Origin: Hevea brasiliensis
Taxonomy: Eukaryota > Streptophyta > Magnoliopsida > Malpighiales > Euphorbiaceae
Direction: 5' to 3'
NCBI RefSeq assembly: GCF_030052815.1
Contig: NC_079504.1
Location: 99,383,969 to 99,447,968 of the forward strand
Length of the DNA: 64,000 nt
This document shows, one piece after another, positions 21,644-59,044 of this stretch. The position numbers and the translations under genes are program-made. A model generated the notes under the pieces. It worked only from the letters and a program-made list of their open reading frames with translations. It searched no databases and had not been told where the DNA came from. The first letter of the stretch is position 1. Each line of letters begins with the position of its first letter.

Positions 21644-21660
21644 ATTCTCCCCCCCTTAAA
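21644..21660 (-). promoter_or_regulatory. Element A polypurine tract
   Basis: Minus-strand TTTAAGGGGGGGAGAAT abuts the LTR start TGTAACACC. Confidence 0.85.
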
Positions 21661-21689
21661 TAAATTTCTTCTCGAAATTTTACCTGGTA

Positions 21690-25140: not shown

Positions 25141-25182
25141 TAACCAACTGTGCCCTGACTGCCTGAAGTAGTGCTTCTACCT

Positions 25183-26341
25183 CTACCTCTTCCTCTCGCT
25201 AACCGATGTGAACCTCGAGAGCGGGACTGCAATAGATCCCTCGGCAGTAGGAGCTGGACTATATCTCGGAGCACTAGTACAGTCTTTAGCTATATGGCCC
25301 TTGCCACCACAGTTAAAGCAGGCTCCAGTGGCCCAGTAGCACTCCCCCCCATGAATCTTGCCACAAGTCTCACAGGGGCGGGCAGAATGTGAACCCCTGC
25401 TCGACTGCTGACCAGACCTAGGGGGTCTCTGTCCGGAGAATCGGCCCCTACCAAATCTTCCACCTCGACCCCTGCTGGGTCCACTAAACTTCTTCTTTTT
25501 CCCAGAAGTCCCACCAGAACTCGGCTCTACAGACTTTTCCCCCTTGTCTTTGTCTGATTTCTCAGCTTTCTCTGATTTTTCTTTCACTGGGGTTGCTTCT
25601 GATTCTATTCTTTCCAACTCAAGTGCTTGAGACATGAGCTCTGAAAAGTTGCTGTGTCGGAATCCCACAACTTGCATCCTTATGCTGGGCTTCAAACCCG
25701 TCTCAAATCTCTTGCATCTTGCCTTACTGGTAGTAAGGAGACTCCCCGCATAGTGACTCAGGCGGGAGAACTCCCTCTCATACTCTGCCACCGATCGGTT
25801 CCCTTGTTTCAGACTAAAAAATTCTTGCAATTTCTGGTCAACATATGCATCTGGGATGTATTTCTGTCTGAATTCTCTGATGAAGTCATCCCAGGTCAAC
25901 ACTGGTGGTTCAGCCAAGCTGTGGGGGATGGTCTTCCACCAATCATACGCATCCCCTTGCAGTAGCGACACAGAATACTCAAACTTCAACTCATCTTGGC
26001 AGTGCAGCTTCTTAAATACTCTATCCATTCTTTCAAGCCATTGCTCTGCCTCTAAAGGGTCCACTGTACCCTTAAATTCTGCAGCCCCATACTTCAGTAA
26101 TTTATCATATTGTCTGGCTGGAGGCAGTGGTTGTGCCACAGGTGGTTGGGGTGGAGCTTGAGCAGGCATACCCCCAGCCATTTGCTGAAACATCGCAGCC
26201 ATCTGCTGTGCAAACTGTGCAGGGAACTGCGGCATTTGTGGGGCTGGTGCTGCTGACCCACTAACATTCGATAAAGCTGGGGCTTCCCCTTGTGCCTCAG
26301 CTTCAACAGACTACTCAACTGAGCGATCCCCTTCTTCCATA
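25183..26341 (-). pseudogene. Element A gag
   Basis: Nucleocapsid/capsid polyprotein. The frame runs from a Met near 26339 through a stop (TAG near 26307) into an open stretch from 26235. It has a Gln/Met/Pro-rich N-terminus, a retrotransposon gag domain (AAEFKGTVDPLEAEQWLE... through YDWWKTIP, FIREFRQKY and VAEYEREF), a charged Lys/Glu/Ser linker, an Arg/Gly-rich stretch and a knuckle CFNCGGKGHIAKDC with intact CX2CX4HX4C spacing, preceded by CETCGKIHGGEC. A frameshift near 25225-25250 ends the frame early. Overlapping ORFs on plus and in other minus frames are shadows. Confidence 0.92.
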
Positions 26342-26505
26342 ACAGTCTGGAGTAGGGTATCTCCTGAACAAGTAACACATGGAGATTTCCCTCCATTAGT
26401 TCATATTTATGATGTAATGCACTGTATGTAACAATTATGGACATTGAGCAGTTGTACTTAACAAAGAATTACACAAATTCACAATTTAAAACGTACTTCA
26501 AAAAC

Positions 26506-26519
26506 TTACTCTGATACCA
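26506..26519 (-). promoter_or_regulatory. Element A primer binding site (tRNA-iMet)
   Basis: Minus-strand TGGTATCAGAGTAA lies 8 bases after the 5' LTR end. It matches the initiator tRNA-Met primer site over its first 11 bases. Confidence 0.85.
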
Positions 26520-28171
26520 CTAAAACATGTCACACCTTACCCCTCTATAAGGCATAACATGAACCCGTAGAATACCTAATGAACTACCGAACTTCACCTA
26601 TCGATAACTCATTAAGTACCCTACAAGGGATTTTAAAACAATTTTCTTATTTTTGACAAGTGGTGAGCATTTTCTAGTAAGTACTTAAAACATTTACTTA
26701 AAATTAAAACTAGTTAATATTTTTGGTCCATTTTAGTTTTCCGCAAATTTTATAAAAATTTTGACAGAGTTTCCTCTGTATTTTGAGAAAACCGTTCTTC
26801 AAATACCTGTAAAAAGCACTTCTAAAAAATTTTCTCAACCACTACTTCAATTTCATACTCAATCCCAATCAATTTCACTCAAATTAAATAAAATAGTTGT
26901 ACTCATATTTCATTAGAGACAAAATAATTTATATACATTCTTACAAACTTTACATCAAAAGAAATACAACTAAACTTTATTACAAATTTCATATAAATTT
27001 TTTTGTACAAGCTGCTCAAAATCCATTTACATGTCCATATATTTATGTACAATATATACATCAAAAGAAATATTTATAGTTAGGGTATAAATTATACCCG
27101 AAGACTTCAAGCTGATGACTCCTCACACCTCAGCAGCTCAGTCTGCTGCTCCTCTAGTCTCTGTATCTGCGACAGCAATAGAAGCTATCGCTGAGTACTA
27201 GGACTCAGTGGTACACAACATACTAAAATAATTTTTATGCAAAATATAAATCACGTTTATTCCAAAAATTTGACTAAACATGAACATTAAACACAAAACA
27301 TGAATTATGAGGTTTTAATGCAAACCAAGTTCATTTCGAAGTATCAAAACACATTTCATAAAACCCACAGTTAGATCATGCCATTCGAAACAAATAGAAT
27401 CTCAATAGCCAGAGGCTAAAGAGAAATCACATCACAAGGCTAGCTAGCTCAAATATATGGATACCATTCACATCCTCTTCTACTGGCACACCTCAACACT
27501 TCTCCAGAGAAGGAATCAAAATTCGAAACTAATTACCCCCACTAATCGTGTTAGTGAGGTGTTCAAATATATGGTCATGATACTGTGGTTTCAAAACTTA
27601 TCTTAACAATTTGTTAAACATTGTCATGTCAAATATACACAATAACTTCCAACAATTTAAGTCAAAACATCATAACTAATGTCACAAATAAATTCTCAAT
27701 AATTCAAAGCAAATGTAAAATACATATTTCATTCACTTTATCAACACATTTTAAAGCATAGTGATGTTGTGCACAAACCTCAAATGAGTCGTCTTTTGGC
27801 CTTAACTCGACTCCTCGGGTTCTGTCCCGGTATTCTTTTCCACTAAAACACACAATTTTATAGTGTTTCAGTACCATAATTTAACATAAATCCAAAAATA
27901 AATTTAACTTCACTTATACCTAGTTCTAACGTGCTAATTTCGACGTTCTTGAAATTTTTGTGTTTCGGGTTACTATTCACTATACTATTCAAGTCAAATT
28001 ATTGACTTTTTAAGGCTTAATAGGTATGGGAACTCCAACTTCACCCACATACCACATTTTGGCCATTAAGCTTGTTGGTTTTGGTCATTTTCTCAAAGAT
28101 TAAGTCATTTTGGCAAAATTGCCAATTTTCGGTTTTGGTGCTCCAAAATTGCACTGTTCCATTGGTCAATC

Positions 28172-28934
28172 TGTTGAGGCAGTGGGTGTAGAATAGGCTT
28201 TGAGGCGTGATGAATCACTATCTTTAAAGTATTAATTGCCCCCACTAGATTGCTGCAAGGTTATGGCAATATACCTCCAGGATATAATAAAGCCTGAAAT
28301 CTGCAGACAGCAACTCCTGAAGATTTCCCTTAAGAACTCTTTATACGAACTGAATTTAGAAAGACTAGAAGAAAAGAAGAAGAAGTAGAAGTAGTATATA
28401 TCTGGATTGAAAAAATCATTCATATTTATAAAGAATGAAAAGTCATAGCACCTTTACTAGATAGACACATCTGTCTATCTCCAATAGATACAACTGTTTA
28501 TGTAATAGACATGTCTATTTATTAAAAGATACCTATACAAATAGTTGTAACTATTTGTATAGAATAGACATGTCTGTTTATTAACAGACACCTATACAAA
28601 TAGTTATGACTTTTTGTATAGAATAGACATGTCTATTTATTAACAGACACCTATACAAACAGTTGTGACTGTTTGTATAGAATTGATATGTCTGTCTATT
28701 AACAGACACATTTACTTATTAATAAACACATCTATTCGTAATTTATTTATGAAAATTACAATATGATAATTATTTTATTTCACACATATACGTGCCAAGT
28801 GCCATAATAGAATAATATATATTGAATTTATATATATAATTCTATACATATTTTACTCTTACCATTACCTTATATTTTAACAATATAGGAATTCTTTCTC
28901 TCTATATTGTCTAACATACAAGCTATTTATAACA
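28172..28934 (-). repeat. Element F left (3') LTR
   Basis: 763 bp, nearly identical to 31973-32676 but one 59-bp repeat unit longer. Units at about 28504-28690 contain inverted repeats such as ATACAAATAGTT/ACTATTTGTAT and GACATGTC. Confidence 0.92.
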
Positions 28935-29591
28935 ATCCCCCACTTAGCTTGTATTGTTAGATCCCATTGTTTCATGCATAATGAAAAGTATCTTTCGATT
29001 TAAACTTTTCCTTAGTGTAAGTATTTCAAAGTTCTAAAGAAATCATGGTGGCCTTAGCTTAAACCTAGATTCCTATTAAATAGAACCGGAAATACTACAC
29101 ACACGAATCAATTAGTTCGACTTAAAAAGTTCACCAAAATTTTAGCACGAATATGGCCTTGTGCTACCTCATGTTTTCATGAACATTTACAAAAGTTATT
29201 CTCACTTTTGTTGAAGCGGCACCACTTCCTATGTTCATATAGGTGAAGTTTCCTTTGTAATAATTTTAAACTTCATTAAGAGTATAAATACTCATCCTCA
29301 TTCCATTAACTTAGTACATTAAGTACTTTAATTACAACATTTACTAATGACTTGTTGTTACCCTTTAAACTTTATTTAGTAATAATACTATAAAGTAGGA
29401 TTCCCATCATTAGTAAATTTAATGGAATATTCTAAATCCTAATCAGCACATGTACTTATGATCATAACTCTCGAGAGCCCTTTTATTAAAGGATTTGCTA
29501 GATTATTATAGGATTTAACATAAACATGGTAATAACACCATTAGAGACTAATTGTCTTACATTTTCATGTCTTAAGCTTATATATATACTT

Positions 29592-29900
29592 TCAATTGTA
29601 TATTTTACTATAAACTTTAACCATCGTGATTTGACTATCACAATATAAAGAAATAGATAGCACAGGTTGTGGCCACAACTTAATATCCGATAATAAGTTT
29701 CTCAGCCATTCTACTTCTTTACCAACATTCGCCAAAGTTATAAATTCGGATTCCATCGTAGAATGAGTTATGCAAGTTTGTTTCTTTGATGCCCAAGAAA
29801 CAAAACCTCCACCTAAAGTGGACACCCAACCAAAGGTTGACTTATTATCCGTAGTACTACTTATCCAATTGGCATTTGTATAATCCTAGGATCTCCACCA
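29592..29900 (-). pseudogene. Element F copia RNase H fragment
   Basis: The minus frame 29592-29825 holds the typical Ty1/copia RNase H text: [21 protein letters not shown], then EVEWLRNLL and LYCDSQ. It ends early in AT-rich sequence. Upstream the frame is broken. RNase H degrades RNA in the RNA-DNA hybrid; this fragment cannot be functional. Confidence 0.85.
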
Positions 29901-30331
29901 TATTTGTTTTACTAGTCAACCATATAATCATATGTTTATAACATGAACTACATAAATAATTCACAGTCTAGATATATACCTTATTTTTTCAGAAATAAAT
30001 TACTCCATAACTTGTTTAAAATGAGAGTATCCAACAATAAAGAACCAAGCTAAACTTGCACATACACACAAATGCATACTCATTTGTCCTTTTGTTACTT
30101 CTTACAAATGACTTGTAAGGCTCTTATATTTACTACTCAAAATGTATCAACCTTTTGGCCAATAAATTCATCTCTTCATACATGTAACTATTAAGAAGAA
30201 TTGCATCTTTTTATTTAGTTACATCTTTTGGCCAAGAGACACAACTCTTTGCATGAATACAACTCTTTATATGGTTTTAGCACATTTGGAAATTTATCAC
30301 AGAATAATCTATAGTTTATAATTCTTTTTTT

Positions 30332-30588
30332 TTAATATCCAAAAACCCTTGAAATTTCTTTCCAGTATTTCATACTAATATTACTAGTATAACTTGATAA
30401 TTTAAATACTGCGAAAGCAATATCAGGTCTAGTGCAATACATAGCATATATTAAGCTATCAATAGCATTAGTATACTCAATTTGAGTAATTATTCTACCA
30501 AAATTTCCAGTGAATTTGCAATAAATATCATATGGAGTATTTGCTTCCCTCAACACAATGAAATTGACAAAGAGTAAAACCCCCACTA
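30332..30588 (-). pseudogene. Element F RT C-terminal fragment
   Basis: The minus frame contains QIEYTNAIDSLIYAMYCTRPDIAFAVFKLSSYTSN, here cited only as the recognisable blocks SLIYAMYCTRPDIAFAV and KLSSYTSN. These mark the end of copia reverse transcriptase. It lies between RNase H (29.6 kb) and the YVDD block (31.4 kb), in the expected order. Confidence 0.85.
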
Positions 30589-31259
30589 TGTTACAGCTAG
30601 GTAGTTTAGGCAGATCCCTCAAGGATAATAACCAAAATATAAATCTAGAAAGTAATTTTAAAATTCTTCCAAGAATAAATTAAAGAATAATAATATTGAT
30701 TGTAGGTAAAAATGAAGAGAAGAGACAAAAAAAGAAAGTTACTAGATTTTTTTTTTGGTTCCAAACTGCTATTTATAAAGCATTTGCATCTCTTCAAACA
30801 TCTACAATAGTTCACTTTGTATCTATTAGAATAGTTATATCTATTCACTTACACCTTTTAGAATAGATACAATAGTTTACTTCATATCTCTTATAACAAT
30901 TACATCTATTCTCTTATACCTTTTACAATAGATACAATCGTTCACTTTGTATCTCTTTGAATAATTACATCTGTTCACTTATACCTTTTACAATAGATAC
31001 AACTGTTCACTTTGTATCTCTTAGAATAATTATATCTGTTCACTTATACCTCTTAGAACATATACAACTGTTCACTTATACATCTTAGAAACTATTTACT
31101 TATACCTTTTAGAATAGATATAATCATTCACTTATACCTTTTAGAACAGATGCAGCCATTCACTTTGTATCTCTTAGAACAATTTTATATATTCACTTAT
31201 GAACAGACATAACTCTTTTGAAATGAGATAAAAATTTTTTTATCACTAATATTTTAACA
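30589..31259 (-). repeat. LTR-like insertion inside F (uncertain)
   Basis: The segment starts TGTTACAGC and ends ATTTTAACA. It is followed by a minus-strand purine run (GGTGGGGATAT). It is full of degenerate repeats of about 60 bp based on CTGTTCACTTTGTATCTCTTAGAATA, a layout like the repeats in F's own LTR. It separates two parts of RT. No target duplication was found (CACTA versus ATATC), so it may be a recombinant end of another copia element, not a clean insertion. Confidence 0.45.
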
Positions 31260-31379
31260 ATATCCCCACCTAGTTATTGATAGATACAATCAATATGAAT
31301 TAGGATTTATGCATACAAAAAGTGTTTTTCGACTTATGCACATAAATTTTATTATCTTCTTTAACACATTCACCATGAG

Positions 31380-31972
31380 CTTTAGCATCATAATATAACC
31401 TTATATTTCTTCTAATTATAAGCATGTCATCAACATAAAATAAATTATCACATTAAAAACTTTTAATGTGTATGTATTTCAGAATCTATTTAAGAGAAAA
31501 GTCGTATGTGGCATACAATAATTTCGTCCTATAATCATTCAAACTAGAAGTATGATGTGCTCTTATTTCTCCTGATTGCAATGATTTAGGAACTACCACT
31601 TTCAAATCCTTAAACTTTGAAACAAAGATATGCAACTCATGGACTTATCCATAACAGGCATATTATCAAGTATTTAGAATTCAAAATATTTCATAATGAG
31701 ACATTTACCCATACCTTTTTTTTTCTGTACTGTATTCTAATTCTAACGAATTCCAGATTTCCTTTGGAGGCTTCACAGAGGAAAATAAATCTTATAGCCT
31801 ATTTGATGAGTTATTGAGAATAAGACCTCTGCATGGCAATTCATCTTCTTTTCTTGATCTGCTTTCACCTTCTCAGTGAATATAAGTTGTTCCTTAAAAT
31901 GATCAAGTTTCACGAACTCTTGATTCATCACGAAAACAGCCATAGACTCTATTGCGTTTAATACCTTAAAAT
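31380..31972 (-). pseudogene. Element F RT catalytic block and gag start remnant
   Basis: Near 31405-31440 the minus strand encodes FYVDDMLIIRRN, the copia RT active site. At about 31800-31935 a short minus frame beginning MAVFVMNQEFVKLDHF resembles the start of copia gag. The stretch between does not give a clear protease or integrase. Large internal deletions are the simplest reading. Confidence 0.65.
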
Positions 31973-32676
31973 TGTTGAGGCAGTGGGTGTAGAATAGGCT
32001 TTGAGGCGTGATGAATCACTATCTTTAAGGTATTAATTGCCCCCACTAGATTGCTGTAAGGTTATGGCAATATACCTCCAGGATACAACAAAGCCTGAAA
32101 TCTGCAAACAGCAACCCCTGAAGATTTCCCTTAATAACTCTTTATACGAACTGAATTTAGAAAGACTAGAAGAAAAGAAGAAGAAGTAGAAGTAGTATAT
32201 ATCTGGATTGAAAAAATCATCCATATTTATAAAGAATGAAAAGTCATAGCACCTTTACTAGATAGACACATCCATCTATCTCCAATAGATACAACTGTTT
32301 ATGTAATAGACATGTCTGTTTATTAAAAGATACCTATACAAATAGTTGTGACTATTTGTATAGAATAGACATGTCTGTTTATTAACAGACACCTATACAA
32401 ATAGTTATGACTTTTTGTATAGAATTGATATGTCTGTCTATTAACAGACACATCTACTTGTTAATAAACACATCTGTTCGTAATTTATTTACGAAAATTA
32501 CAATATGATAATTATTTTATTTCACACATATACGTGCCAAGTGCCATAATAGAATAATATATACTGAATTTATATATATAATTCTATACATATTTCACTC
32601 TTACCATTACCTTATATTTTAACAATATAGGAATTCTTTCTCTCTATATTGTCTAACATACAAGCTATTTATAACA
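31973..32676 (-). repeat. Element F right (5') LTR
   Basis: 704 bp, TGTTGAGGCAG to TTATAACA. It has one fewer 59-bp unit than the left LTR (repeat zone about 32308-32436). The primer site to its left is not clear: the minus strand reads AAGGTATTAAACGC, a poor match to the tRNA-iMet site. Confidence 0.92.
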
Positions 32677-34692
32677 CAATCTACTGTTGGAATTTGGCAA
32701 AACTTCCTTCATAGAAAATGTTCCTTATTGTCTTAAGCGTATTCTCATTTTTGGATCACCCCAATCGGAGTTTTGTAGCTCAAGTTATAGCCAAAATACA
32801 ATTACTGTTCACGTGCACTGTTCATGCTGAGATTTTGGTTCTGGCAGATTTTTGATCCAACTTTGTTCAGTAATTTGATCAAGTTAAGTTCATAATTTGG
32901 TCTAACTTTCTTCATATGAAATGTTCTACTATGTCTTAGGTTTCCATCGGTTCAAGAATCACCTAAATCCGAGTTTCCTAGAGAAAGTTATAGCCCTTCA
33001 AACATTACTGCTCAAATGGAATTCTGCAGAATCGCAGGTACAGTAACTCAACTTTTGCTCAATAATTTGAATGGGTTAATGGCATAATTTGGGGTGGTGT
33101 TCTTCATGAAAGTTTTAGATCTATATCTTATCTAATTGCTGGTAAAATTTCAGGTCAATTTGACCTGTCTAGCTCGAATTATGACTAAAATGAACAGTTA
33201 CTGTTCATTTGGTCGATTTAGTCTTGATGTGACCGCTCTCATTTCACTTTGGTCAATTGTTGCACTAAGTTTTGGTTAGTTTTTGGGCATGGTTCCTTAA
33301 TGAAAATTGTGCCCTTTTTTTGTCTATTTTCATCCCCAATTGGTAGCATATCAATTGGGCTTGTAAAATTCCCATTTTGGTCCTTCAAAGTAGGTTTGGT
33401 CATGCTGCATTTGACCTATGAATTTGGTTTTCATTCCAACAATTCCCACACATCTCTTTTGTTCATTATTAACCATTTTTCATCTCATAATAGACTAAAG
33501 TCATCATTTAAGCATTTCTCCAAAATTTGGTTCACAAACCCTAGCCTCCTAACCCTAATCTCACTTAATTGTTACAATTAATTACATTTATGCATTTCCA
33601 TCTTACTACCATACTCATGCAAGTTTATTAACACTTTTAATTCATTTAAAATACATCCACTCTCATACCTCAATGGCTGGCCGAAAATTCCCTCTCTTCC
33701 TAATCATGCAATATTTTTCAATTCCTTCATATAATCTCATTCATTTCTACCTTAAATCCATCATATATACTAAAAAGAAAAGCTGGATTAGTTTACCTTA
33801 AGTGAGCAAAATTTGTCTATCCAATTCTTCAATTTCTCTCCTCCTTTCTTCTTTCTTTCTTGTGCTTAAGTTGAGATTGCAAGGTCTAGTGAGGTATTTA
33901 AGGGAGTTATGAAGGTTAAGTGAAGAGAATTAAGCTTAAGTATAAGCTTAAAGGAAGAAAATTTCATGGAGGACTTGAGAGAAAGTGGGGCGGCAAACCA
34001 AGGAAAGAAGAAGACTTTTTCTAATTTTTTTTTCTTTTGTTTCCTTTAATCTTATCCCTTTTTGAAGACCAAAATTCCCAAATTAATAAAATAATTTAAT
34101 TAATCTTTTATGACATCATTCATGATGTCATCACCTTTGACTTTTCTAACTTCTTTCTCTTTTTTTTTTCTATTTATTTTTTTCTATTAGTTCTTTAATT
34201 TAATTCTCGATTCTGAAATTTTCTTTTCTCCGTTTTTATTTGACAGTTAGGTCAGGAGTCAGCTCTCGGGGTCAATTAACCAAATTGCCCCTCGCCGGTT
34301 CATCCCGGTTTGTAAATAATCCAATATTTCTTCCGGCTCCCTGACCTAATTATTTGACTGGTTTAACAGTTCTTTTTCGTGATTTTCTCTTTTTCACTGT
34401 GTTCATAAGGGCCTAAGGACCACAGCGTCACTTTTTACGGTTTGAAATTTGAGTTTAAAAAGACTTCGCAGTCGTTCCCGAGGAGGTCACTCATCGCTGT
34501 GACTCTCGGCTCGTTTAACCTCTTATGTTCTGTTTTTCTTATTTATAGTTAACTAATTAAACATTACTAATTATTTGTGTTTATGGCTTCTTAAGTTGTC
34601 TTAAGTGTGGCTCTAATCTCCTTAATTGTCCGGACCGACACCGGTCACCGGAACAGTGAAATATACCAGGCTATACAAATAGGGGTGTTACA

Positions 34693-35346
34693 ACCTTCAC
34701 TTTGCTGTACTCTTTCTATGATCTTCATCAATTGTTGGTCTCTGTGCTGGGAAACTCTAACTCTGTCTCTCAAGTCTGGCCTCACTGAAAAATGAGCCAG
34801 CAATACCCCCTTATCTGAAAGATCTAGGATTAAACCTTGATCCATCAACTCATGTACCTCCTGAATTAACGGTCTCTTCTCTGCTGAAATGTGCTCCAAA
34901 CTGCCAGAAGATTTTCTGCTCAAAGCATCTGCTACTACATTGGTTTTCCCAGGGTGGTACTGGATGGTGCAATCATAGTCTTTCAGAAGCTCCATCCATC
35001 TCATCTGTCTCAAGTTTAAATCCCTCTGTTGGAAGATGTACTTCAAACTCTTGTGGTCGGTGTATATCTCGCACACTTCACCATACAGGTAGTGTCTCCA
35101 GATTTTTAGTGCAAAGACTACAGTCGCCAATTCCAAATCATGGGTGGGGTAGTTCTGCTTATGCCTCTTCAGCTGTCTTGAAGCATAAGCCACTACTTTT
35201 TCATTCTGCATCAAAACACACCCTAGGCCAACTCTGGAGGCGTCACAGTAAACGGTGTATCCTTCACCACTCATAGGGAGTGTCAACATAGGGGCGGTGG
35301 TTAGACACTCCTTAAGCTTCTGGAAACTCCTCTCACAGTCATCTGT
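34693..35346 (-). pseudogene. Element B pol, middle part: RNase H
   Basis: The frame resumes right where A's LTR ends and holds chromovirus RNase [17 protein letters not shown], then [23 protein letters not shown] and VVADALSRK. It is cut at 34693 by element A; the integrase part continues at 18010. A TGA at 35347-35349 replaces a codon between this domain and the RT thumb. Confidence 0.92.
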
Positions 35347-35632
35347 TCAAATGAATGGAACATTCTTCTGAGTTAATTTAGTTAGGGGAGCCGCTATCCT
35401 GGAAAAATCTTGCATAAAACGCCTATAGTAGCCAGCTAAACCCAGAAAACTTCGCACCTCAGTGACTGTTGTAGGCCTAAGCCAATCAGTTACAGCTTCA
35501 ATTTTCTTAGGATCCACTTGAATGCCGTCACTAGAAACCACGTGTCCCAAGAATGAGATGCTTTCTAGCCAAAATTCACATTTTGAAAATTTGGCATATA
35601 TCTGGTGCTCCCTCAACGTCTGCAACACCATC
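35347..35632 (-). pseudogene. Element B pol: RT thumb/connection
   Basis: The minus frame includes the typical chromovirus blocks [29 protein letters not shown] and [11 protein letters not shown]. It is cut at 35632 by element C. The RT palm with FIDDILVYS lies on the other side at 62247. Confidence 0.92.
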
Positions 35633-38600: not shown

Positions 38601-38608
38601 TATAAATA
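38601..38608 (+). promoter_or_regulatory. TATA box of the PF04195-like gene
   Basis: TATAAATA followed by a G-rich run, 163 bases before the ATG at 38771. The other copy has it at 59693-59700. Initiation about 30 bases downstream would give a leader of about 140 bases. Confidence 0.65.
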
Positions 38609-38770
38609 GGGGTGGGGGGGGGGGTTAGCCAGTTGTTCTCTAATTCTATTTTCAGTCCCCTGCTCACAACTTCGAAGTTCTCTCGTTTTCTCAATTTCTT
38701 CCGACGCCGATCAGACTCCGGTAAGGGCTTTGATCTTCTTTTTAGTTTAAGTTCTTTATTTCTTTTGAAA

Positions 38771-40061
38771 ATGAGCGGTGCCGAAGGTCAAAGAGCGGCG
38801 AGTCCTCCCTCCATTCAGTTCTCGTGGTCGTCTGACGAAGAAGAAGTGGTCGGGCCAAGCGCGCAAACACAACCTCCTAGGGCCTCTGTTCCAGCTCGGG
38901 GGCGGGTCGGACCAACAAGGCATGTACCTTCTTCAGGGAGGGAGAATCTCCCTATGGACGAGCTGCCATCGATCTTACAAGAGTCCGATCTACAATCGTT
39001 TAGCCAGGAGTACAATATTCGCCCTGATTCGTACGAACTTATCCGGTGCCACGGCGATCACCGAGCCGATCACTTCTTTGAAGAAAATGACCTGGTAATG
39101 GTATACGAGGAACAGTTAAAGGCCGGTCTTCGGTTCCCTCTAGACGACTTCTTCAAGGAGGTCCTAAAACTTCACCGGGTATGCATTGCTCAAATTCACC
39201 CTAACTCGTGGCGGATCTTAGTAGCTTTCCGAGGTCTATGCCGATATAAGGGAATCAGACCTACGGCTAAGGTGTTTGCCGAACTGCACAGGCTAACTCG
39301 CCGAAAGAACGATGATCACTGGTTCTTTCAGGCGAAGCCTCATTGCGGGCTCTTCACCGATCTGCCCTCCTCCCTTAAAAATTGGAAGAACCGCTTCTTC
39401 ATTCTGAGGATCAAAAATCCGACCTACTTTGAGGACTTCCCTCGTAGCTGGTGGCACCAGGGGCCCTTACTTCCGAAGCACGTTAACCTGAACCAGGAAG
39501 AAAGCTTAATAGTGATGGATCTGAAAAGTCAGGCTGCCACTCAAAAGTATTCCTGTTTAGACGCAGTGACCGCCGAGCTGCACCATTGGACCCTACAGTT
39601 GCTCATCGGCCAAGATCGCGAACTTCCGCTCTCTGACCTCGGCACTGGTATTTTCTAAATCTCAGATCTCAGGACCTTAGCGATCTCACTGACCTCTCCT
39701 TTGTGCAGGTATGGTGGGTGATGAGGGTTCTAGGAAGCGGAAGAAGGAAAGAGAGATCTCCCGGAAAGTAAAGGAGATGAAGTGTTCGAAGATGCCTCGA
39801 ACTCCCGGCCATGAACCAGGGGAGACGCAAGGAGGCCCGTCCCGACCTTCAGGGCCGCCGATCACTGAAGTTGTCCGATCTCCTCCTCAACAAGAAGAGC
39901 CGGCTCCACCCCCTCCAGTTGCTCCAAGCACAGAAAGGGGTCCTTCTCAACCTTCTGTGAGATCCTCCTCTCGTGGCGCTCAAACGTTGATGGAGTCCCT
40001 GAAGAATAATCGATTCTCGGGAGAACGCCAAAGTGTTGGGGTCTTCCATCCGCCTTCGTGA
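38771..40061 (+). CDS. Two-exon PF04195-like gene, antisense in C's left LTR
   Basis: Exon 1 (38771-39647) starts at an ATG in AAAATGA context, kept in both LTR copies; an in-frame extension to 38612 would cover most of the leader. It encodes an acidic Ser/Pro-rich N-terminus, then a domain I recognise as PF04195-like ('putative gypsy type transposon'): YELIRCHGDHRADHF, VMVYEEQLKAGLRFPLDDFFKEVLK, then PNSWRILVAFRGLC. (Cited as separate short blocks.) Unspliced, it stops 3 codons into the intron. Removing a 61-bp GT-AG intron (39648-39708) joins ACT-G to GT-ATG in frame with exon 2, a Lys/Arg/Glu-rich start and Pro-rich linker. Exon 2 stops early at 40059 because of deletions; the other copy keeps its coiled-coil-like end. 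Function unknown. Confidence 0.7.
39648..39708 (+). other. Predicted 61-bp intron
   Basis: The donor is CACTG|GTATTT; the acceptor is CCTTTGTGCAG|GT, with a pyrimidine-rich run and a CACTGAC branch-like motif. It contains an in-frame TAA. The identical intron is at 60718-60778. It is short for a plant intron, which lowers confidence. Confidence 0.65.
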
Positions 40062-40731: not shown

Positions 40732-42175
40732 TCTTTACATAATTTCTATTAAAGGGAAAATTTCCGTGTAGGAATTCGTAAAGATTCGAACTCATATTTT
40801 GACGATTAAGTGTTCAAGTTAGGAACTAAAGCATACCTAAAGACCTAGAGATAGGCAAAATTTAAAAGACCTAGAAAATTAAAATCAACTTGGATCAAGG
40901 AACCGAACAAAAAATGTAAATCGCTAGAAATTAAAATCGACTTAGATCAAGGAACCAAAGGTCGATAGCTGGAAATTTAAATTGCAGGAAATTAAAATCA
41001 ACTTAGATCAAGGAACCAGAGGTTGATATTGCAGGAAATTAAAATCAACTTAGATCAAGGAACCAGAGGTTGATATTGCAGGAAATTAAAATCAACTTAG
41101 ATCAAGGAACCAGAGGTTGATAACAGGAAATTTAAATTGCAGGAAATTAAAATCAACTTAGATCAAGGAACTAGAGGTTGATAACAGGAAATAGGAAATT
41201 GCAAGAAATTAAAATCAACTTAGATCAAGGAACCAGAGGTTGATAACAAGAAATTTAAATTAAAATCAACTTAGATCAAGGAACCAGAGGTTGATAATAG
41301 GAAATAGGAAATTGCAAGAAATTAAAATCAACTTAGATCAAGGAACCAGAGGTTGATAACAGGAAATTTAAATTAAAATCAACTTAGATCAAGGAACCAG
41401 AGGTTGATAACAGGAAATAGGAAATTGCAAGAAATTAAAATCAACTTAGATCAAGGAAAGAGGTTGATAACAGAAATTTAAATTGCAAGAAATTAAAAAT
41501 CAACTTAGATCAAGGAACCAGAGGGTTGATAACAGAAAATTTAAATTACTTAGATCAAGGAACCAGAGGTTGATAATGTGAATAGGAAATTGCAAGAAAT
41601 TAAAATCAACTTAGATCAATGAAATTTAAAAGAAATTAAAATAAAAATCAATCAATCAAGGACGAGGGGTTGAGAGGAAAATTTAAGGAAATTGAAATTA
41701 AAATCAACTTAGATCAAGGAACCAGAGGTTGATAGCAGTAATTTAAATTGCAAGAAATTAAAAATCAACTTAGATCAAGGAACCAGAGGTTGATAACAGG
41801 AAATTTAAATTGCAGGAAATTAAAATCAACTTAGATCAAGGAACCAGAGGTTGATAACAGGAAATTTAAATTGCAGGAAATTAAAATCAACTTAGATCAA
41901 GGAACCAGAGGTTGATAACAGGAAATAGGAAATTGCAAGAAATTAAAATCAACTTAGATCAAGGAACCAGAGGTTGATAACAGGAAATTTAAATTAAAAT
42001 CAACTTAGATCAAACCAGAGGTTGATAAGAAATAGGAAATTGCAAGAAATTAAAATCAACAGATCAAATTTAAATTGCAAGAAATTAAAAGAAATTTAAA
42101 TAGGTTATCAATTGTCAAATCTATTATGGTTTAATATAAACAAAGAAGAGGTTTCAAAGAATAGAGGATAGATCT
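40732..42175. repeat. Tandem array in C's 3' UTR
   Basis: After about 150 bp of AT-rich sequence, from about 40880 to 42110 runs an array of roughly 17-20 units of about 60 bp. The unit core reads AATCAACTTAGATCAAGG, then AACCAGAGGTTGATAACAGG, with AAATTTAAATTGC spacers. Units vary by small indels. The array lies between pol and the 3' LTR of C, a place where Tat-lineage elements are known to carry variable tandem repeats. No gene is visible. Confidence 0.92.
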
Positions 42176-45100
42176 TGTAACATCCTCCTCAGATTACTCA
42201 AGATACCATCGTCTGGATCCAGACGGTCCCATAGCTAGAACATCCAAAAATAATTAAACTAAAGTCAGAACCATAATTAACTCAAATATTAATAAGAAAA
42301 ATTTAGTAAAAATTTTAGAAATAAAATACAACCAAGTAAAGCAGTGGTGCCCAAGCGATGGGTAATCGGAGGGAAGTTGCGCTTCGCAACGAAGAGCCCT
42401 AGATCAGGGGAAAAATTATAAAATAATTTTTGGGACTCCAGAGAAGGGTCATTGAGGTTTCTATGGCATTAGAATGCCAAGAAAATATTTAGAAAAATTT
42501 TTCAATCGGTACAGCCAATTTTGACCCGTTAAGCCAAACGGAGGGCATTTTGGTCATTTCGCTTTCCGAGGTGATTTTTGGCCGACTTGTCCAGTTGAGT
42601 AAATAATTATTATGACATAAAATATGAATAAACATTACTAAAAATTGAATTGAAAATGAGTAGAGAAAAGAAGAAAAGAAAATGAAGGAAAATGCTTAAT
42701 TATGACATATGGTGAAGTCATTTAAAAGCCCCCTCCAATCACCATTTGACAAACCAATAAAAAGAGATAAAAATGACTTAAAATGAGATAAAAAACAAAG
42801 GAAACCAGCAGTTTCCTTCTTCATACGGGCTGGAATAAGAGAGAAAGAGAGAGAAAAGGAAAAGAAAGAAAGAAAGAAAGGAAGAAGGAGAAGGAGAAGT
42901 AGCAGAAATAGGGGTTCAGCAGGGCAGCATATTTCTTTTCCGTCCAGGTGAGTTTGGCTCAACATCTAAGGCTGATTTTTGGATATGTTTAAGCTATGTA
43001 TGTGTGGAAGTTATGGTAAAAATTTGGTGATTGTTCAACGGTTGGATTTGGAGAAACATATTGTTGAACACAGGCTGTCTGTAGGTTGAATTCTGAATTT
43101 TGGCTACTGAAATTTGAGAAAAATAAATAGTTAGGATGCTTATAAAATTATGAAATTTGGTAAAAATGATATTTGGGATGTTGAGGCTGCTGTGTTAAAA
43201 TTTGGTGAATTTTAGACTTGTGGTTTATGAGATATAAATTGTTTTGCATGAGCTGTCTGAGTAAGACTGATTTCTGCAAAAATTCAGATTATGAAGGGTT
43301 GAATGAATGTTTTGATATCTCATGATATAGAGATGATTTGATGCTGAAATTTTTACTGATATTGTATAGGGATGTCTTGAATATATGGTATAAATTTGGG
43401 ATTTATCTAACGGTTAGATCATTATATATAAATTTGAATGCACAAGCTGCCAGATTGGGTATTAATGGGTTGTGGATTTAAGATTTATGATGGGAGTTTA
43501 GTCCAATTTAAGGGGAAATGCTATTGAATTTTTATTGGATATTTAATTTAGGAAAGTGAAGTTATAATTGATTATGATTATTATGGTTCTAGGAGAAATC
43601 TTGAAGAATAAAAAGCTCAAGGTTGGATTCAAAAAGGTTAGTGCATATTAACTTCCTAATCTTGTTTACTTATTGAAATTTAGTTTGAATATGAGTAAAT
43701 AATTAAGAAATTGAAGAAAATCATGTGTGAAATTGAGAAGCAAATTTTGGCCAGCACTTATAGGATGAGGAATTGATGAGTTTTATTGGGCTAAAACCTA
43801 AATACAAGCTTAGATAGTGACATATGAATGATTGATGACCTTAATTGGGATGTGTTGCATGATTCATGGATTGGAAGCTAGGGTTTTGAGAAGTGAAATT
43901 TAGATTTAGCTTATGAAATTGTGAAAGAACATTATAAGGGTCAATTAGTGACCATTTTAGATATGTTGACCATAATTAGAACTGAAAAATAGTATGGTAA
44001 AGTGAAAGTGAAATCTGCCCTATGACAGCAGCATAGAGACTGAAAATTCAGTCCCTTTGCACTGCCATAACTTGGGCTGTGCTAGTCCAATTGGTGTTTG
44101 GCCAATTGGACATGAAACTAGGCTTATAATGGCACATTTTTGCTGAAGAAACCATGCCCAAAAGACCAAATCAAGAGGACCAAAACTTGGCCCCAATCCG
44201 GATACCCTGCACTGAATTCTGCAGAATTGACCAAATGAACAGTAACTGTTCATTTGGCCATAACTCACTGTAGATTTGGTCAATTGACCTGAAATTTTTA
44301 CAGCAACAAGTTAAGACATAGACAAACAACTTTCATGAAGGAACCTACCCCAAATTATGGCCAGAACCCATCCAACCAAGTGACTCTAGTTACTGTTCAT
44401 GCACTGTAGATATGGTAATTTTCTGCAGAATGCACATTCGGCCAGCTTGGGTCTTTGGACCATATCTAGAGCTACAAAACTCCAAATGGAGTGATTCAAA
44501 AAATAAAATTCAACTAGACAAAATAAGGAACAACTTTCATGTTTTACATTTCTTCAAATTCCCACAGTAACAGTGTCCAATGGAACAGTAAAATTGACTC
44601 ACCAAAACTGAAAATTTTGCTTGTGTTGAGTTTACACTTAGAAATGGTATTAATGCTTAATGCCAACAAGTTTTAAATGAAAAATATGGTATGTTTGAAG
44701 TGCCAAAGTCAATGTACATATTTTCTATCCAAAAGTCAACATTTTTGTTGACCAATGAGGTGAATAGTGACACCAAAACCAAAAATTGGCAATTTTGCCA
44801 AAATGACCTAAGCTTTGAGAAAGTGACCAAAACTAACAAGTTTTAAATGTAAAATGGGGTACATTGGGAGTATTAAAACCAATGTACCTATTGTTTATGC
44901 AAAAGTCAACATTTTAGTTGACTAATGAAATGAATAGTGACATGAAAACTTGAAATTCAAAAATTGTGAAACTAAAAAAAAAGCAAAATGCCCTAGTAGG
45001 CCTAATGTGATTGGTTTGGATAGTTTGGCATGCCAATAGGGTATTGTTTTAGCAGTACTGCGAAAGGAAAGGCTTTATGCCTGTATTCATGGCTTTATGC

Positions 45101-46183
45101 CTGTATTCATGGCTTTTACGCCCGTATTCATGGCTTTTATGCCGATTATGTGATATCATGGCTTTTTAGCCATACTGATCGTGATACGTGGTTGACGCTC
45201 AAGTCCCATGGTATGACGGCCCGAGGCAATCGGTTCAAAGTTAACGACCCGTTATCCACCCAATCGCCCAAAGATAGGTTACTTGGGCATGGAAAAGTAT
45301 AATGTAAATGAACCGATTGTTAAAGAAAATACGAAAATTAAATATCAGGAATGATTACGATAGAATACAAAGAAACTCAAGATCATGAAGAAAATAATTA
45401 ACAAAATGCATGAAGAAGTTAATATCATAAGACGTAATTAGCCCTCGACTAAACACTAAGTTGGTAATTATTCAGTTCTTATGAACACAATGGCTAAGAA
45501 ATTATGATTTTTATATTGCATATTATTTCTTTCTATTTTATTATTTGCACCACTAAGCTTTATGCTTAGCGCTTTGCAACGCTGAGGTATCAAGATTGAC
45601 AGAGCACCAGAGACCACGATTCGGTAAGGCGGTTCACGCTCAAGATAGTATCCGTGTCACCTCACCGTCATAGCATTGGTAGGACGCTAGATGACATTTT
45701 AGTATTTTGTAATTGATTTTATTTTCTCATATGTATTTGAACTTATGTAATATATTTTGATATTCATGTAAATAATGAAAAGTGTGGTTGTAAATGGAAA
45801 AGTGAATGTTTATCTGTAATTTATATATGATTATCACATGTGATGCAAATGGATCAAATGAGATGAATGATTGAGAAAATGAATGGTTGAAAAATGTTGA
45901 GATTTTGACAAATGGAGTTGAGATGATTGAATATTAATATAGGTAGTGTTTTTCACAGGTTCCGAAGAACGGTTTTCTCCATTATTAGCCTGATCACGGA
46001 TTTTCTTTAAAATTTTCGGAACCTCAAATAAATTATAATTTCGACAAAAGGCTTAAATAAATTATATTTCACAAGTTATATTAAAAAGGAAGAATAAAAA
46101 TGAATTAAGATAAAATAGAGTGCTCGGCACACTGAGTGGCATAACTTGCTCGGCTACACTGTAGTCGGGTAAGGGGTGTCACA
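42176..46183 (+). repeat. Solo LTR D2 with 5-bp target duplication
   Basis: A 4.0-kb LTR from TGTAACATCC to GGGGTGTCACA with perfect GATCT duplications at 42171-42175 and 46184-46188. It is the same family as D1 but in the opposite orientation and has an extra stretch of roughly 0.5 kb. It carries the CCAAATGAACAG hairpin (44230-44256) and paired CCAATTGG (44087-44109). It sits in C's 3' UTR. ORFs at 42696, 44020, 44657 and 45030 look spurious; the last is produced by the short tandem repeat. Confidence 0.94.
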
Positions 46184-46521: not shown

Positions 46522-47463
46522 TTAGGCATAATATTTTCTGACGATGTCAGCATTCACAGGTCTCGGAAACTCTTCACCGTCCATGTGGGTCAAGATCAAG
46601 GCTCCTCCAGAAAATGCCTTTTTAACCACATAGGGTCCCTCGTAGGTTGGTGACCATTTGCCCCGGGGATCATTTTGATTCGGCAGTACTTTCTTCAGAA
46701 CTAAGTCCCCGGGTTGGAATTCGTGCGGGCGAATATTTTTGTCAAATGCTCTAGCCATCCTCATCTGGTATAACTGCCCATGACATGCTGCTGCTAACCT
46801 TTTCTCATCAAGCAAGTTTAACTGATCCAACCTTGACTGGATCCATTCTGACTCATCAATTCCTGACTCCTTCAGAATCCTTAGGGAAGGGATTTCAACT
46901 TCAATAGGTGATACCGCTTCCATCCCGTAAACTAGCGAGTATGGAGTTGCCCCGGTTGAGGTTCTTACGGAAGTTTGGTATGCGTGGAGAGCGTAAGGAA
47001 GCATATCATGCCAATCCCTATACGTGACTGTCGTCTTCCAGATTATCCTCTTGAGATTTTTGTTTGCAGCTTCCACCGCTCCATTCATCTGGGGACGGTA
47101 TGGGGAGGAATTGAGGTGCCGGATTTTGTATTGATCACACAATTTCTGGATCTTCGGGCCATTCAGATTCTTAGCGTTGTCAGTGACGATTTCATTGGGG
47201 AGGCCATGCCGACAGATAATATTGCCTCTGAGAAATCTGAGAAACGTATTCTGTGTGATGTGCGCATAGGATGTTGCTTCGACTCACTTGGAGAAATAGT
47301 CGATGGCCACAAGGATGAATTTGTGCCCATTGGATGCCTTGGGATTTATGGGACCAATCACATCGATGCCCCACATTGCGAAGGGCCATGGTGAGACGAG
47401 GTTGAACAACTTGTGAGGTGGCACATTGATTGGATCGGCATAGATTTGACACTTATGGCATTT
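46522..47463 (-). pseudogene. Element C integrase
   Basis: From the right the minus strand encodes KCHKCQ (second half of the zinc site), then the core with Asp in MWGIDVIGP, Asp in IVTDNAKN and Glu in NGAVEAANKN. The C-terminal region follows with FQPGDLVLKK and WSPTYEGPYVV. A frameshift near 47190-47290 splits the core between two frames, and a TGA at 47464-47466 cuts off the zinc-binding N-terminus. No chromodomain is present, as expected for Tat elements. The last frame (46522-47142) is open to the end. Confidence 0.92.
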
Positions 47464-48276
47464 TCAGAAATACTCGACGCAATCCTTTTCCATTGTGATC
47501 CAAAAATACCCACGTCGCATGATTTGCTTAGCCATCATGTGCCCATTGGCATGGGTTGCGCAATTTCCCTCATGAGTCTCAAAAAGGATTTTCTTCGCCT
47601 CCTTTGCATCCACACATCTCGAATTACCGGAGCTCCTCTTGTATAGGGTTTCTCCACTGGGGAAGTATCCCAATGCTAATCTTCGAATCATCTTCTTTTC
47701 ATTCTTGCTTGCCCCCAAAGGGAATTCTCTGGTTCTACAGTAGACCAGGATGTCATGATACCAAGGCTTTCTATCGGGCTCTTCTTCAATCATGAAGCAA
47801 TATGCTGGCTCACTTCTTGCTTTAATCTTCAATGTCTGAGCCATCTGACCCTCTTCGATTTGAGCCATAACAGCTAGAGTAGCTAAGGCATCAGCAAATT
47901 GATTCTTGTCCCTACTAAGGTGAGTGAAAGAGATTTCTTCGAATTTCTTGATCAGCTCCAATAGGTACTTCTGATACGGGATTAGCTTGGGATCCTTGGT
48001 TTGCCATTCTCCCTTGACTTGATAAATAATCAGGGCTGAGTCTCCGTATACCTCCAGCTTCCTGATTTTCATTTCGATGGCTGCCTGTAGACCCATCATG
48101 CAAGCTTCGTATTCCGCGACGTTGTTGGTGCAGTCAAATCTCAATTTAATGGCTATCAGAAAGTGTTTCCCCTCCGGGGATATCAATACAGCCCCAATTC
48201 CATTCCCGGACAAATTGACAGCTCCGACGAAATACATTTTCCATACATTGGTCGGCCCTCCTCTTCGCAAATCCAC
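47464..48276 (-). pseudogene. Element C second RNase H and integrase N-terminus
   Basis: The 270-codon frame starts with an RNase H fold of the type found between RNase H and integrase in Tat elements: YFVGAVNLSGNGIGAVLISP, then NVAEYEACMMGL, VYGDSALII, and HLSRDKNQFADALATLA. It continues into the integrase N-terminus (LYKRSS, THANGHMMAKQIMRRGYFW). The metal-binding residue of the first strand, usually Asp in a F-(D)-G motif, reads VGAVN; the match there is uncertain, so activity is doubtful. Confidence 0.88.
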
Positions 48277-49928
48277 TTCATTAATATGCTCATCAGAAAC
48301 TCAAAATCCGAGCTTCATAATCCTGGATAGGGTTTTCTGCTAGGAGGTCAGCAATCACGCTACCTTTCACCGCTTTCCGGGTCATATAGACTATGTCATA
48401 TTGGGAGAGTATAACCTGCCACTTGGCTATCCTTCCTGGCACGAATGGGCTTTCGAATACATATTTGATAGGATCCATCCTGGAGATGAGCCATGTCTTG
48501 TGATTCAACATATAGTGCTTGAGGCGATTTGCTGTCCAGGATAGCGCGAAGTAAGTCTTTTCTAAGAAAGTGTACCTCGACTCACAATCATTGAACTTCT
48601 TACTCAGGTAATAAATAGCCCTCTCCTTTCGCCCAGATCATCATGTTGTCCCAACACACATCCCATCGAAGTTCTCACTGGATCGCCATATACGTGATAA
48701 GAGGCCTTCCTACCATGTGGGACCAATCGTGGTCTTGACAAGTATTGCTTGATCTTCTCAAAAGCCTCTTGGCAACCGAATCCCATTGGGTGGAGTTGTT
48801 CTTCCGAGTAGCTCGAAAATTGGCTCACTTTGGCAAAGTGAGATTGGAAATAAATCTTGAAATGTAGTTCAACTTTCCTAAAAATCGCGCACCTCCCTTT
48901 CGTTCTTGGGGATGGCATCTCTTGAATAGCTCAACCTTGTCCGATCAACCTCTATTCCTCTCGCTACTATGAATCCCAACAACTTTCCCGATCTAGCTCG
49001 AATATGCATTTGGCAGGTTGGTTTCAACTGGTATTTCCTGAGTCTCTCGAATACTTTCCTTAGTACCTGCACATGAGTTTCTTCTCCCCGGGATTTGATG
49101 ATCATATCATCCACATATACTTCCACCTCTTTATGCATCATATCGTGGAATAATGTGACCATTGCACGCTGGTAGGTAGCACCAAAGATTCTTCAATCCA
49201 AAAGGCATGACCCGATAGCAAAATACTCCCCATTGAGTGATGAAAGCAGTTTTATCCTTATCTTCCTCGTCCATCGGGATCTGATTATACCCTGATGCCC
49301 CATCAATACACGAACACCTGCCCAATCCCGCAGCATTGTCAACTAACACATCAATGTGAGGGAGAGGGAAATCATCTTTTAAGCTCGCTTTATTGAGATC
49401 CTCAGAATCGACGACACCCGAACTCTTCCGTCCTTCTTCATTACCGGGACCACATTAGCTATCCATTGGGGATATTTGACCACTTCCAGGAACCCAGCGT
49501 CATACTGTTTCTTGACTTCATCCCGAACTTTGAGCAGTGTGTCGGGATTCATTCTCCTTAACTTTTGCTTTACCGGGACTGTCCCTAGAATTAGGGGAAT
49601 TTTGTGCGTCACTATCTGGGGGTCCAAACCCACCATATCATCATAGCTCCAGGAAAATACGTCAAGGAATTCTTTAAGCAGACTGATCATATCTCCCAAT
49701 TCTTCACTCTCCACTACCTTGAGTTCCCTTTTTACTTCTTCTGTGCCTAAATTTATGGTGCGCGTTCCGTCTCCACAAGGCACGAGGGAGGGCTCATCCT
49801 TTTCACTGTCTTCTTGTGTAGGGTCTTCCTCAGAATCATTTGAAGTAATGGCAGTTATGGGGATTTCGAAATTAACCAGAGGAATCTCTGAATCTATTGG
49901 ATTATTAGGTGTAAATTGATGAATGGTC
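48277..49928 (-). pseudogene. Element C reverse transcriptase and first RNase H
   Basis: The minus strand starts at the intron acceptor (49928) with an acidic linker, then RT: VFSWSYDDMVGLDP, VKKQYDAGFL, NVVPVMKKDGRVR, then in another frame CIDGASGYNQIPM, TAFITQWGVFCYRVMPFGL and the catalytic VYVDDMIIKS at about 49115-49095. RNase H pieces follow (YHVYGDPVRTSMGCVLGQ; FVPGRIAKWQVILSQYDI). At least four frameshifts or stops occur (near 49378, 49165, 48900, 48600). All blocks are in the right order, so this is one decayed gene. Confidence 0.9.
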
Positions 49929-50103
49929 CTGAATGAATAAAAAAATGTATATTAAGGATGGAATTCAAAAGAAAGAGAGAATTGGATTTAAAATGCGCTA
50001 TTTAATTCATTAACGTTTGTGCCATAAGAAAAGGTCCATTTACAGTATTACACTTGTCACCATGGACAAAATGATCAAGTGTTGATAACCAAAGGTACTT
50101 TAC
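49929..50103 (-). other. Predicted 175-bp intron between protease and RT of C
   Basis: On minus the donor is TTCGA|GTAAAG and the acceptor is TTTTTATTCATTCAG|GAC. Unspliced, protease stops at TAA right at the donor. Spliced, the frame runs on through an acidic linker into RT. Ogre elements are known to separate protease from RT by a partly spliced intron, and position and phase fit that. Confidence 0.8.
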
Positions 50104-51202
50104 TCGAAATTGAGTACAGGGACGTCCTTGGTTGTCCAGTTGTTCAGCTCTTGCCCCTCAGTCATTGGCGAGACTAGGGCCTCATACAAGGAATCCAGTT
50201 GGATGACATCTATGGATGGATCATCGGGTGATTCTTCTGTGTTTGCCGGATGCTGAATGACCGGTTTAGTGAAGATCTCCGTGATTCTCGGGACTACCCT
50301 TCCTTTGCCCATTTTCTGATCGAACCTCTGATCCCGAAGTATTTTCCTCATCCAGAATCGCCCATCCATGAGGGCATCCTCCTCATATCCCAAACCACAA
50401 TAGCCTACCTTTTGAATAGCCGGTATGGGTTCCACAATTCCTTGCAAGGCAGTGCCTAGGCCTTTTCCCTCCTGATATCCATTCCTTGACATTACTTTGG
50501 CCACCATAGCCATAGCCCCTTCATTTCTGGTTTCTTGCAACTCAAGGGCCTGGAAAGAACTTTCCAACGACTCCTCGGCCGCTTCCACGTAAGGAAGTGA
50601 TTGTGGCTTGGTGACTAATAAGGCTTCTTCTCCTCTCACCGTGATGATTCTGCCATCCATGATGTATTTTATTCTCTGGTGCAGAGTTGAGGGAACGGCA
50701 TTGGCAGAATGGATCCAAGGCCTCCCCAACAACATAGTGTAGGCTGGCTCTATATTCATCACCTGGAATGTGACGCTGAAAGTGCATGCGCCAATCTAAA
50801 GTGGCAAGTCAATATCTCCCAACACTTCTCTCCTGGTACCGTCAAAGGCTCTTACCACCATAGCACTTTGACGTATATCCGATTGGTCAACTGGCAACCT
50901 AGCTAAGGTAGCGCTAGGGAGTACGTTGAGAGCTAACTGCTATCAATAAGTACCTTGGCTACTATACATCCCTTACACTTCACCGTTACATGTAGAGCCT
51001 TAGTGTGCCTTAAACTGCAGGTCTATCTCGCCCTCAGAAAGTAACAAAGCCGGATGCTGGATTTGTCCCACTATCTTCCCAAACCGCCTTGAGTGATTTG
51101 GGGCTCACAAAGGCCCGATCGAACTCTGCGAGGGGCTTGACGGTGCACTTCCGAGCTCAGGATCAGTGACAGCAGTGAAATTCGTGCAGGCGTCTTCCTT
51201 AA
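50100..51202 (-). pseudogene. Element C protease with G-patch domain
   Basis: Protease processes the polyprotein. The N-terminal part (about 51200-50790) is broken: KVLIDS is followed by a stop where the catalytic Asp loop should continue, then LPVDQSDIRQSAMVVRAFDG and GDIDLPL are visible. The open frame 50100-50762 holds YTMLLGRPWIHSANAVPSTLHQ (block cited in part), then a G-patch: AKVMSRNGYQEGKGLG, a Gly-rich nucleic-acid-binding motif found in some retroviral and Tat proteases. The frame ends exactly at the predicted intron donor. Confidence 0.85.
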
Positions 51203-58951: not shown

Positions 58952-58959
58952 TATATATA
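58952..58959 (+). promoter_or_regulatory. TATA box, second copy (small ORF)
   Basis: TATATATA, the counterpart of 37857-37864, about 86 bases before the ORF at 59045. Confidence 0.5.
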
Positions 58960-59044
58960 CCCCTGACGACGGAGACATTTCCTTCATCTGATTTTTCTCT
59001 CTTCCTTCTTTCTTTTCCATTCTAATGCTCGTGTCGTTCCGGCC

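Follow-up and report, generated by a model that had tools for sequence, protein, structure and literature searches.

The question raised by this locus is whether a complete gene, with a TATA box and an intron of its own, can reside inside the LTRs of a plant retrotransposon on the strand opposite to gag-pol, and what such a gene might do for the element that carries it. The locus lies in a window of 64,000 nucleotides of Hevea brasiliensis, at positions 99383969-99447968 of contig NC_079504.1, by which we mean the whole stretch of DNA analysed. The initial annotation of this window had described such an arrangement in the retrotransposon named here element C and had offered antisense RNA or a helper protein as its purpose. 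In the present study that structural observation was partly confirmed, since its core holds and two of its details fail for the copies in the window.

Element C spans 35633-62241 with gag-pol on the minus strand, and the TSD CCATC is found on both sides, at 35628-35632 and at 62242-62246. Since gag-pol lies on the minus strand, LTR copy B (about 56759 to 62241, minus strand, left end approximate, about 5.5 kb) is the 5' LTR and copy A (35633 to about 40731, minus strand, right end approximate, about 5.1 kb) is the 3' LTR; the two copies are 96% identical across their main 4.4-kb block. Joining the short outer flanks of element C restored the empty site, in which the reverse transcriptase of the host element reads through continuously apart from one stop. 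The host is another Ty3/gypsy-like element, interrupted within its reverse transcriptase; on either side of element C lie its RNase H and protease parts, at 34648-35346 and 62525-63412 on the minus strand.

The internal order of element C, read on the minus strand, begins with an extra sense ORF upstream of gag that matches DUF7745 in two frames (54369-55922), followed by gag (Retrotrans_gag, 52221-53309), a G-patch domain piece upstream of RT (50103-50795), RT and RNase H pieces in several frames (48296-49454), a second RNase H together with a weak integrase zinc-domain match (RVT_3, the aRH of Tat elements, 47467-48300), the integrase core (rve, 46525-47283, a weak match below the Pfam curated cut-off) and a tandem-repeat array (40871-42068) that adjoins the PPT side of the 3' LTR. 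PBS and PPT were found at the expected ends in the inspected loci of the family, and the PBS of one locus, L060 (TGGCGACTCCACTGGGGA), seems to resemble the tRNA-Arg type. The LTR pair, the 5-bp TSD, the PBS, the PPT and a gag-pol with RT and integrase, the integrase core being below the Pfam cut-off, are those of a Ty3/gypsy element. RVT_3 (5.8e-24) lies between RT_RNaseH and rve, and an aRH between RNase H and integrase is the published mark of the Tat clade (PMC6317226). The DUF7745 matches (1.3e-34 and 1.2e-19) represent the sense ORF upstream of gag that characterizes Ogre, and the Pfam search of the ORFs of element C gave no match to the plant mobile domain. Element C is thus a Tat-clade, Ogre-like Ty3/gypsy retrotransposon, with the lineage, Ogre or Retand, judged by features only.

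Other repeats were observed elsewhere in the window. Direct repeats at 18011-19648/26528-28172 (97.8%) and 19643-21644/32677-34693 (95.7%) surround a gypsy element within 18011-34693 in which gag, RT, RNase H and a match to SH3_Tf2-1 were recognised; the arrangement points to nested or rearranged elements. The region 7937-11404 holds inverted matches of 85-88% to the stretch of element C between pol and the 3' LTR (42233-46183), probably from a relative in the opposite orientation, and 2385-4165 and 11843-13625 form a direct repeat pair with 94.6% identity.

The antisense gene is read on the plus strand of both LTRs. In copy A, the TATA box TATAAATA (38601-38608), the ATG at 38771, 170 bp beyond the TATA, exon 1 (38771-39647), a 61-bp GT-AG intron (39648-39708) and exon 2 (39709-40061) were all found where the initial annotation had placed them. 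Exon 1 of this copy is open, and its claimed likeness to PF04195 (Transposase_28/TRP28) was borne out by the Pfam search (E=6.9e-12, 45.9 bits, cut-off 26.2). Read unspliced, copy A meets a stop at codon 295. Its exon 2 is shortened and ends at 40061 because the sequence has diverged, so that the spliced product has 409 aa against 591-605 aa in the open copies of the family. The coiled-coil-like end that had been ascribed to exon 2 in the window is not there, as the corresponding family signal (about residues 419-523) lies past the break of copy A. In copy B, exon 1 (59857-60717) is a pseudogene of 861 nt (877 in copy A) with a stop at codon 76, the 61-bp intron (60718-60778) keeps its GT-AG ends, and exon 2 (60779-61673) is longer than that of copy A and frame-broken. 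The exons had been said to join in phase in both copies; the splice sites are indeed present in both, but copy B has no readable gene. Both window copies are broken, A within exon 2 and B as a pseudogene.

The LTR also holds TATA-like sites on the sense strand. One of them, TATATATA at 37864 (minus strand), is present in 28 of the 31 copies compared below and has its counterpart in copy B at 58959; a second (TATAAATA) lies at 37238 (minus strand), with the copy B counterpart at 58351. Since the antisense TATA at 38601 points in the opposite direction to these sites, the LTR contains divergent promoter motifs, and if sense transcription starts at 37864 or 37238, the whole antisense gene lies within U3.

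Both window copies being broken, we turned to the family, which is abundant in the genome. Searches were performed against the 1.88-Gb Hevea assembly, and the best 150 of 9,594, the best 134 of 17,333 (exon 1) and the best 130 of 17,029 (exon 2) first-look candidates were scored. The best 134 places of the exon 1 search were 89-100% identical to the query and aligned over 286-292 of its 292 residues. Thirty fetched loci, one of them window copy A (L031), together with window copy B constituted a sample of 31 copies; as the samples were ranked by protein similarity, they lean towards intact copies. The anatomy of the gene was nearly constant in this sample, with the TATA motif in 31 copies, the ATG in 30, the donor GT in 30, the acceptor AG in 29 and the 61-bp intron in 29. 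Once spliced, 10 of the 31 copies (L032, L034, L036, L040, L041, L044, L050, L054, L058 and L059) are stop-free over 591-605 aa, and the same 10 copies meet a stop at codon 295 or 316 when left unspliced; the other 21 are interrupted.

The second exon provided evidence of its own, since exon 2 was not in the exon 1 query and its openness is no direct effect of the search. Over 297 codons of exon 2, the 31 copies had a median of 1 stop in the spliced phase versus 14 and 15 in the others, and exon 2 was open for at least 290 codons in 12 of the 31 copies in the spliced phase and in none in the other two phases. Thirty further loci picked by the 69-residue PF04195 domain gave comparable results: the same TATAAATA lies upstream in all 30, the acceptor was recognised in 27 and preceded by a GT exactly 61 bp upstream in 22 of these 27, and the median number of stops in 266 codons was 2 in the spliced phase versus 13 and 13. 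Further, 50 loci are common to the exon 1 and exon 2 lists (best 134 and best 130), and the exon spacing is identical in 46 of them.

The initial annotation had named a dN/dS near 1 across the family as the result that would speak against a gene. In the 10 open copies (Nei-Gojobori, the other 21 of the 31 left out), exon 1 had a ratio of 0.20 and exon 2 one of 0.38. Exon 1 of all 30 loci gave 0.22, with 7443 of 13107 differences at third codon positions. A frame that opens only after splicing and purifying selection are what a protein-coding spliced gene displays, and a helper protein is favoured over antisense RNA alone because of this coding constraint. It could still be argued that the antisense RNA is the functional product, controlling the element through dsRNA or siRNA, and that the ORF is a bystander: antisense transcripts of retroelements have been suggested to feed siRNAs in a review of the subject (PMC7264820), and the divergent TATA motifs of the LTR would suit such a role. 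The scarcity of stops in one phase of exon 2 and the dN/dS of 0.20-0.38 are not expected of an RNA of this kind, however, and we consider this explanation quite improbable.

The intron offers a side observation. When the 10 open copies were compared, it had a p-distance of 0.031, less than the synonymous differences (0.08-0.10) and less than the upstream LTR (0.148), and given this low value the intron may carry another signal.

Selection was also compared between the two LTRs of one element. Four LTR pairs were used: a shared TSD identifies L032/L033, LTR type combined with spacing identifies two others, and for L034/L048 the spacing alone was the guide. Their ratios were 0.59, 0.35, 0.87 and 0.47, on few changes. 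From these within-element ratios of 0.35-0.87, constraint after insertion looks weak, which suggests that selection operates via the replicating lineage and not on each inserted copy. Ratios as high as 0.87, together with two broken copies in the window and 21 of 31 interrupted copies, are also what one would see if selection had acted on the gene only while it occupied an ancestral internal position, and it were now dragged along without function. A relic of this kind should not leave 10 of 31 copies open over two exons, a TATA and intron that are constant across subfamilies, and a dN/dS of 0.38 in exon 2; we therefore regard it as very improbable, and a gene that is maintained at the level of the family remains our reading.

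Concerning the location of the gene, the exon searches combined (best-scored places) gave 214 distinct gene places. Neighbours closer than 50 kb form 42 pairs; the members of every pair share a strand, and in 26 pairs they are separated by 17-20 kb, as expected of the two LTRs of one element. For about 130 of the 214 places, no scored partner is that close. LTR ends were fetched for 17 loci (the 30 domain-picked PF04195 loci stand outside this count), and the gene lay inside the LTR in all 17. Seven of these loci are 3' LTRs, which end at the PPT side, five are 5' LTRs, which begin at the PBS, four are solo LTRs, and in one (L044) the single readable end meets flanking DNA. For L040, L041, L044 and L053, one LTR end was not found in the fetched flanks. 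The pair L032/L033 has the TSD CCCTT in common. The four solo LTRs have neither PBS nor PPT and are flanked on both sides by the same five bases (L036 AGCAG, L037 ATTGT, L050 CTAAT, L059 TACCT). The gene is uninterrupted in three of them, and that of L037 stops at codon 337. The flanks of L037 and L059 hold stretches like the region of element C between pol and the 3' LTR, which presumably belong to other elements.

These data support the earlier reading that the gene sits in the LTR, a full insertion having two copies of it and a solo LTR having one: the 42 same-strand pairs agree with the former, and the four solo LTRs with perfect 5-bp TSDs among the 17 inspected loci agree with the latter. 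Owing to its location, the gene is duplicated at each insertion and kept in solo LTRs. The same evidence bears on two other explanations. Tandem or nested copies mistaken for LTRs through an assembly or alignment artefact would be at odds with the TSD and empty site of element C, with PBS and PPT at the expected ends, with solo LTRs bounded by TSDs and with the 42 same-strand pairs; nothing was found in favour of such an artefact, and its probability seems negligible. A separate mobile element or a captured host gene could also have entered one LTR and then been copied to both. The Pfam name Transposase_28 hints at this, and a mobile-element origin for part of the Tat extra ORFs is said to have been suggested by Steinbauerova et al. 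The residence of the gene in the LTR at 17 of 17 inspected loci, the TATAAATA upstream of all 30 PF04195 loci, and a domain and orientation as in the published Retand gene render such an insertion highly unlikely, in our view.

The predicted protein of the family consists of an N-terminal region, the TRP28 domain, the basic motif RKRKK shortly past the splice, a heptad-like stretch and an acidic tail. Heptad periodicity, calculated for L034 only, was strongest in 2 of 11 windows (residues 419-523; p 0.0015 and 0.0005 by shuffling), and exon 2 gave only sub-threshold coiled-coil matches in Pfam. The fold prediction of exon 1, made with 23 related sequences, reached a mean pLDDT of 35.4 and yielded no TRP28 fold, and the profile search of solved structures returned chance-level matches only (E 0.1 or worse). 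Among 5.8 billion proteins, three homologues were matched, namely two Hevea models and one JGI protein, with no other named plant; a further search matched two of these three again. The first Hevea model (P0001, NCBI) crosses the same splice junction, although this model may be purely computed. The second (P0003, GenBank) fuses the last part of exon 1, followed by the intron in unspliced form, to a pseudouridine synthase, and would appear to be LTR sequence taken into the annotation of a host gene. The JGI protein (P0002, from a contig of 2472 bp) is a relative of exon 2 with 68% identity, perhaps from plant DNA in the sample.

Based on this evidence, we propose that the U3 of the LTR holds an accessory-protein gene antisense to gag-pol, whose product would be a nuclear trans regulator or anti-silencing factor; we consider this proposal probable, with appreciable room for doubt. 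Genomic RNA would contain the gene once, reversed, in the 3' U3, and reverse transcription would copy it from there into both LTRs. As the intron is reversed in genomic RNA and cannot be spliced there, it would survive each round of the known replication cycle. The gene's own Pol II transcript would be spliced and translated to yield some 600 aa that include TRP28, RKRKK, a coiled coil and an acidic tail, and this protein may act in the nucleus, in trans on the LTRs of the family, as a regulator or anti-silencing factor. Among the roles considered for the predicted protein, that of a nuclear, LTR-directed regulator or anti-silencing factor ranks as the most likely.

The same coding gene might instead help the element to replicate or integrate, for example by bringing the pre-integration complex into the nucleus or by handling RNA, and have no part in transcription or silencing. 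A review suggests pre-integration-complex and accessory-factor roles for the proteins of antisense ORFs and reports the Grande protein to be nuclear (PMC7264820), and constraint at the family level that is weak after insertion fits a replication role too. A replication helper would need neither the LTR location nor a presence in solo LTRs, though the results as they stand fit a replication role and the regulatory role alike, and we judge the former to be rather unlikely. Under the regulatory proposal, solo LTRs could be one-gene loci that feed the family an LTR-binding regulator or anti-silencing protein, uncoupled from gag-pol and served by the divergent promoter; this we put forward tentatively, as a possibility. 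If true, solo LTRs, normally dead remnants, persist as protein-supplying loci. The position of the gene inside the LTR leads to the prediction that solo LTRs express the protein, and hence its function can be tested apart from the rest of the element.

As to its origin, the LTR edge (PPT) may have shifted past a gene that Retand elements hold between pol and the 3' LTR, and so have come to lie on its pol side; such a shift, taking the gene into the LTR, would be the simplest history. No relative with the gene outside an LTR was found in the Hevea genome, and therefore this history rests on the published order of Retand.

To our knowledge, no function has been established for the extra genes that plant retrotransposons carry in antisense orientation. 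Among titles and abstract openings of open-licence papers in PMC, a range that excludes subscription papers, no description of an antisense gene inside a plant LTR was found. The antisense TRP28 type of gene is already known from Retand (PMC11963269); what is new here is the location in the LTR (U3), the constant intron, the divergent TATA motifs and the persistence in solo LTRs. An LTR boundary can thus enclose an accessory gene, and annotation that treats LTRs as non-coding misses or misnames such genes, two Hevea models already holding parts of this one. A review has called for attention to antisense and spliced transcripts of retrotransposons (PMC7264820).

Of the known systems, the Retand lineage, for which reviews name Silene Retand, rice RIRE2 and maize Grande, is similar to element C in having the PF04195 domain antisense to gag-pol and beyond pol. 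According to Vicient (2025), 97% of Retand clusters carry antisense TRP28 ORFs, which sit between pol and the 3' LTR; the LTRs measure 315-1194 bp, and about half of the clusters have tandem repeats close by. DNA binding by TRP28 is given there as a prediction only, and the word "intron" does not occur in the main text (PMC11963269). The mining in that work extended 10 kb on each side of RT (PMC11963269), a span too short to include the complete LTRs of element C. An own promoter has been reported for the antisense gene of Grande (PMC7264820), and in the survey of Neumann et al. (2019) 23% of Retand elements had Transposase_28 and 57% of Ogre elements had the plant mobile domain (PMC6317226). 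Element C has the antisense TRP28 ORF of Retand but not its internal position or short LTRs, as the gene lies inside LTRs of 5.1-5.5 kb and did so at 17 of 17 loci; it is hence present twice per insertion and persists in solo LTRs, whereas the Retand gene is internal. The family of element C differs from Retand also in that its protein can be read only once a 61-bp intron has been spliced out.

Ogre elements, such as pea Ogre and GmOgre/Gmr9, resemble element C in their giant size, the sense ORF upstream of gag, the aRH between RH and INT, and the minisatellite array that separates the coding region from the 3' LTR (PMC6317226, PMC3305785). Element C differs from them in combining DUF7745 upstream of gag with TRP28 in the LTR.

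More distant systems serve as analogies. In MMTV, an animal retrovirus, sag is a protein gene within the U3 of the LTR, although it is in sense orientation and encodes a protein unrelated to the antisense TRP28 gene described here. HBZ of HTLV lies only partly in the LTR. HBZ and APH-2 of HTLV are nuclear regulators encoded by antisense retroelement genes driven from the 3' LTR (PMC11963269, PMC7264820). The anti-silencing ORFs of VANDAL encode proteins that shield family copies from silencing (PMC11728184), an analogy only to the role proposed here, VANDAL being a DNA transposon. Viewed against these systems, element C is an element of Ogre-like anatomy, seen in its upstream ORF, giant size and 5-kb LTRs, with a Retand-type antisense gene, in which the edge of the LTR lies on the pol side of that gene.
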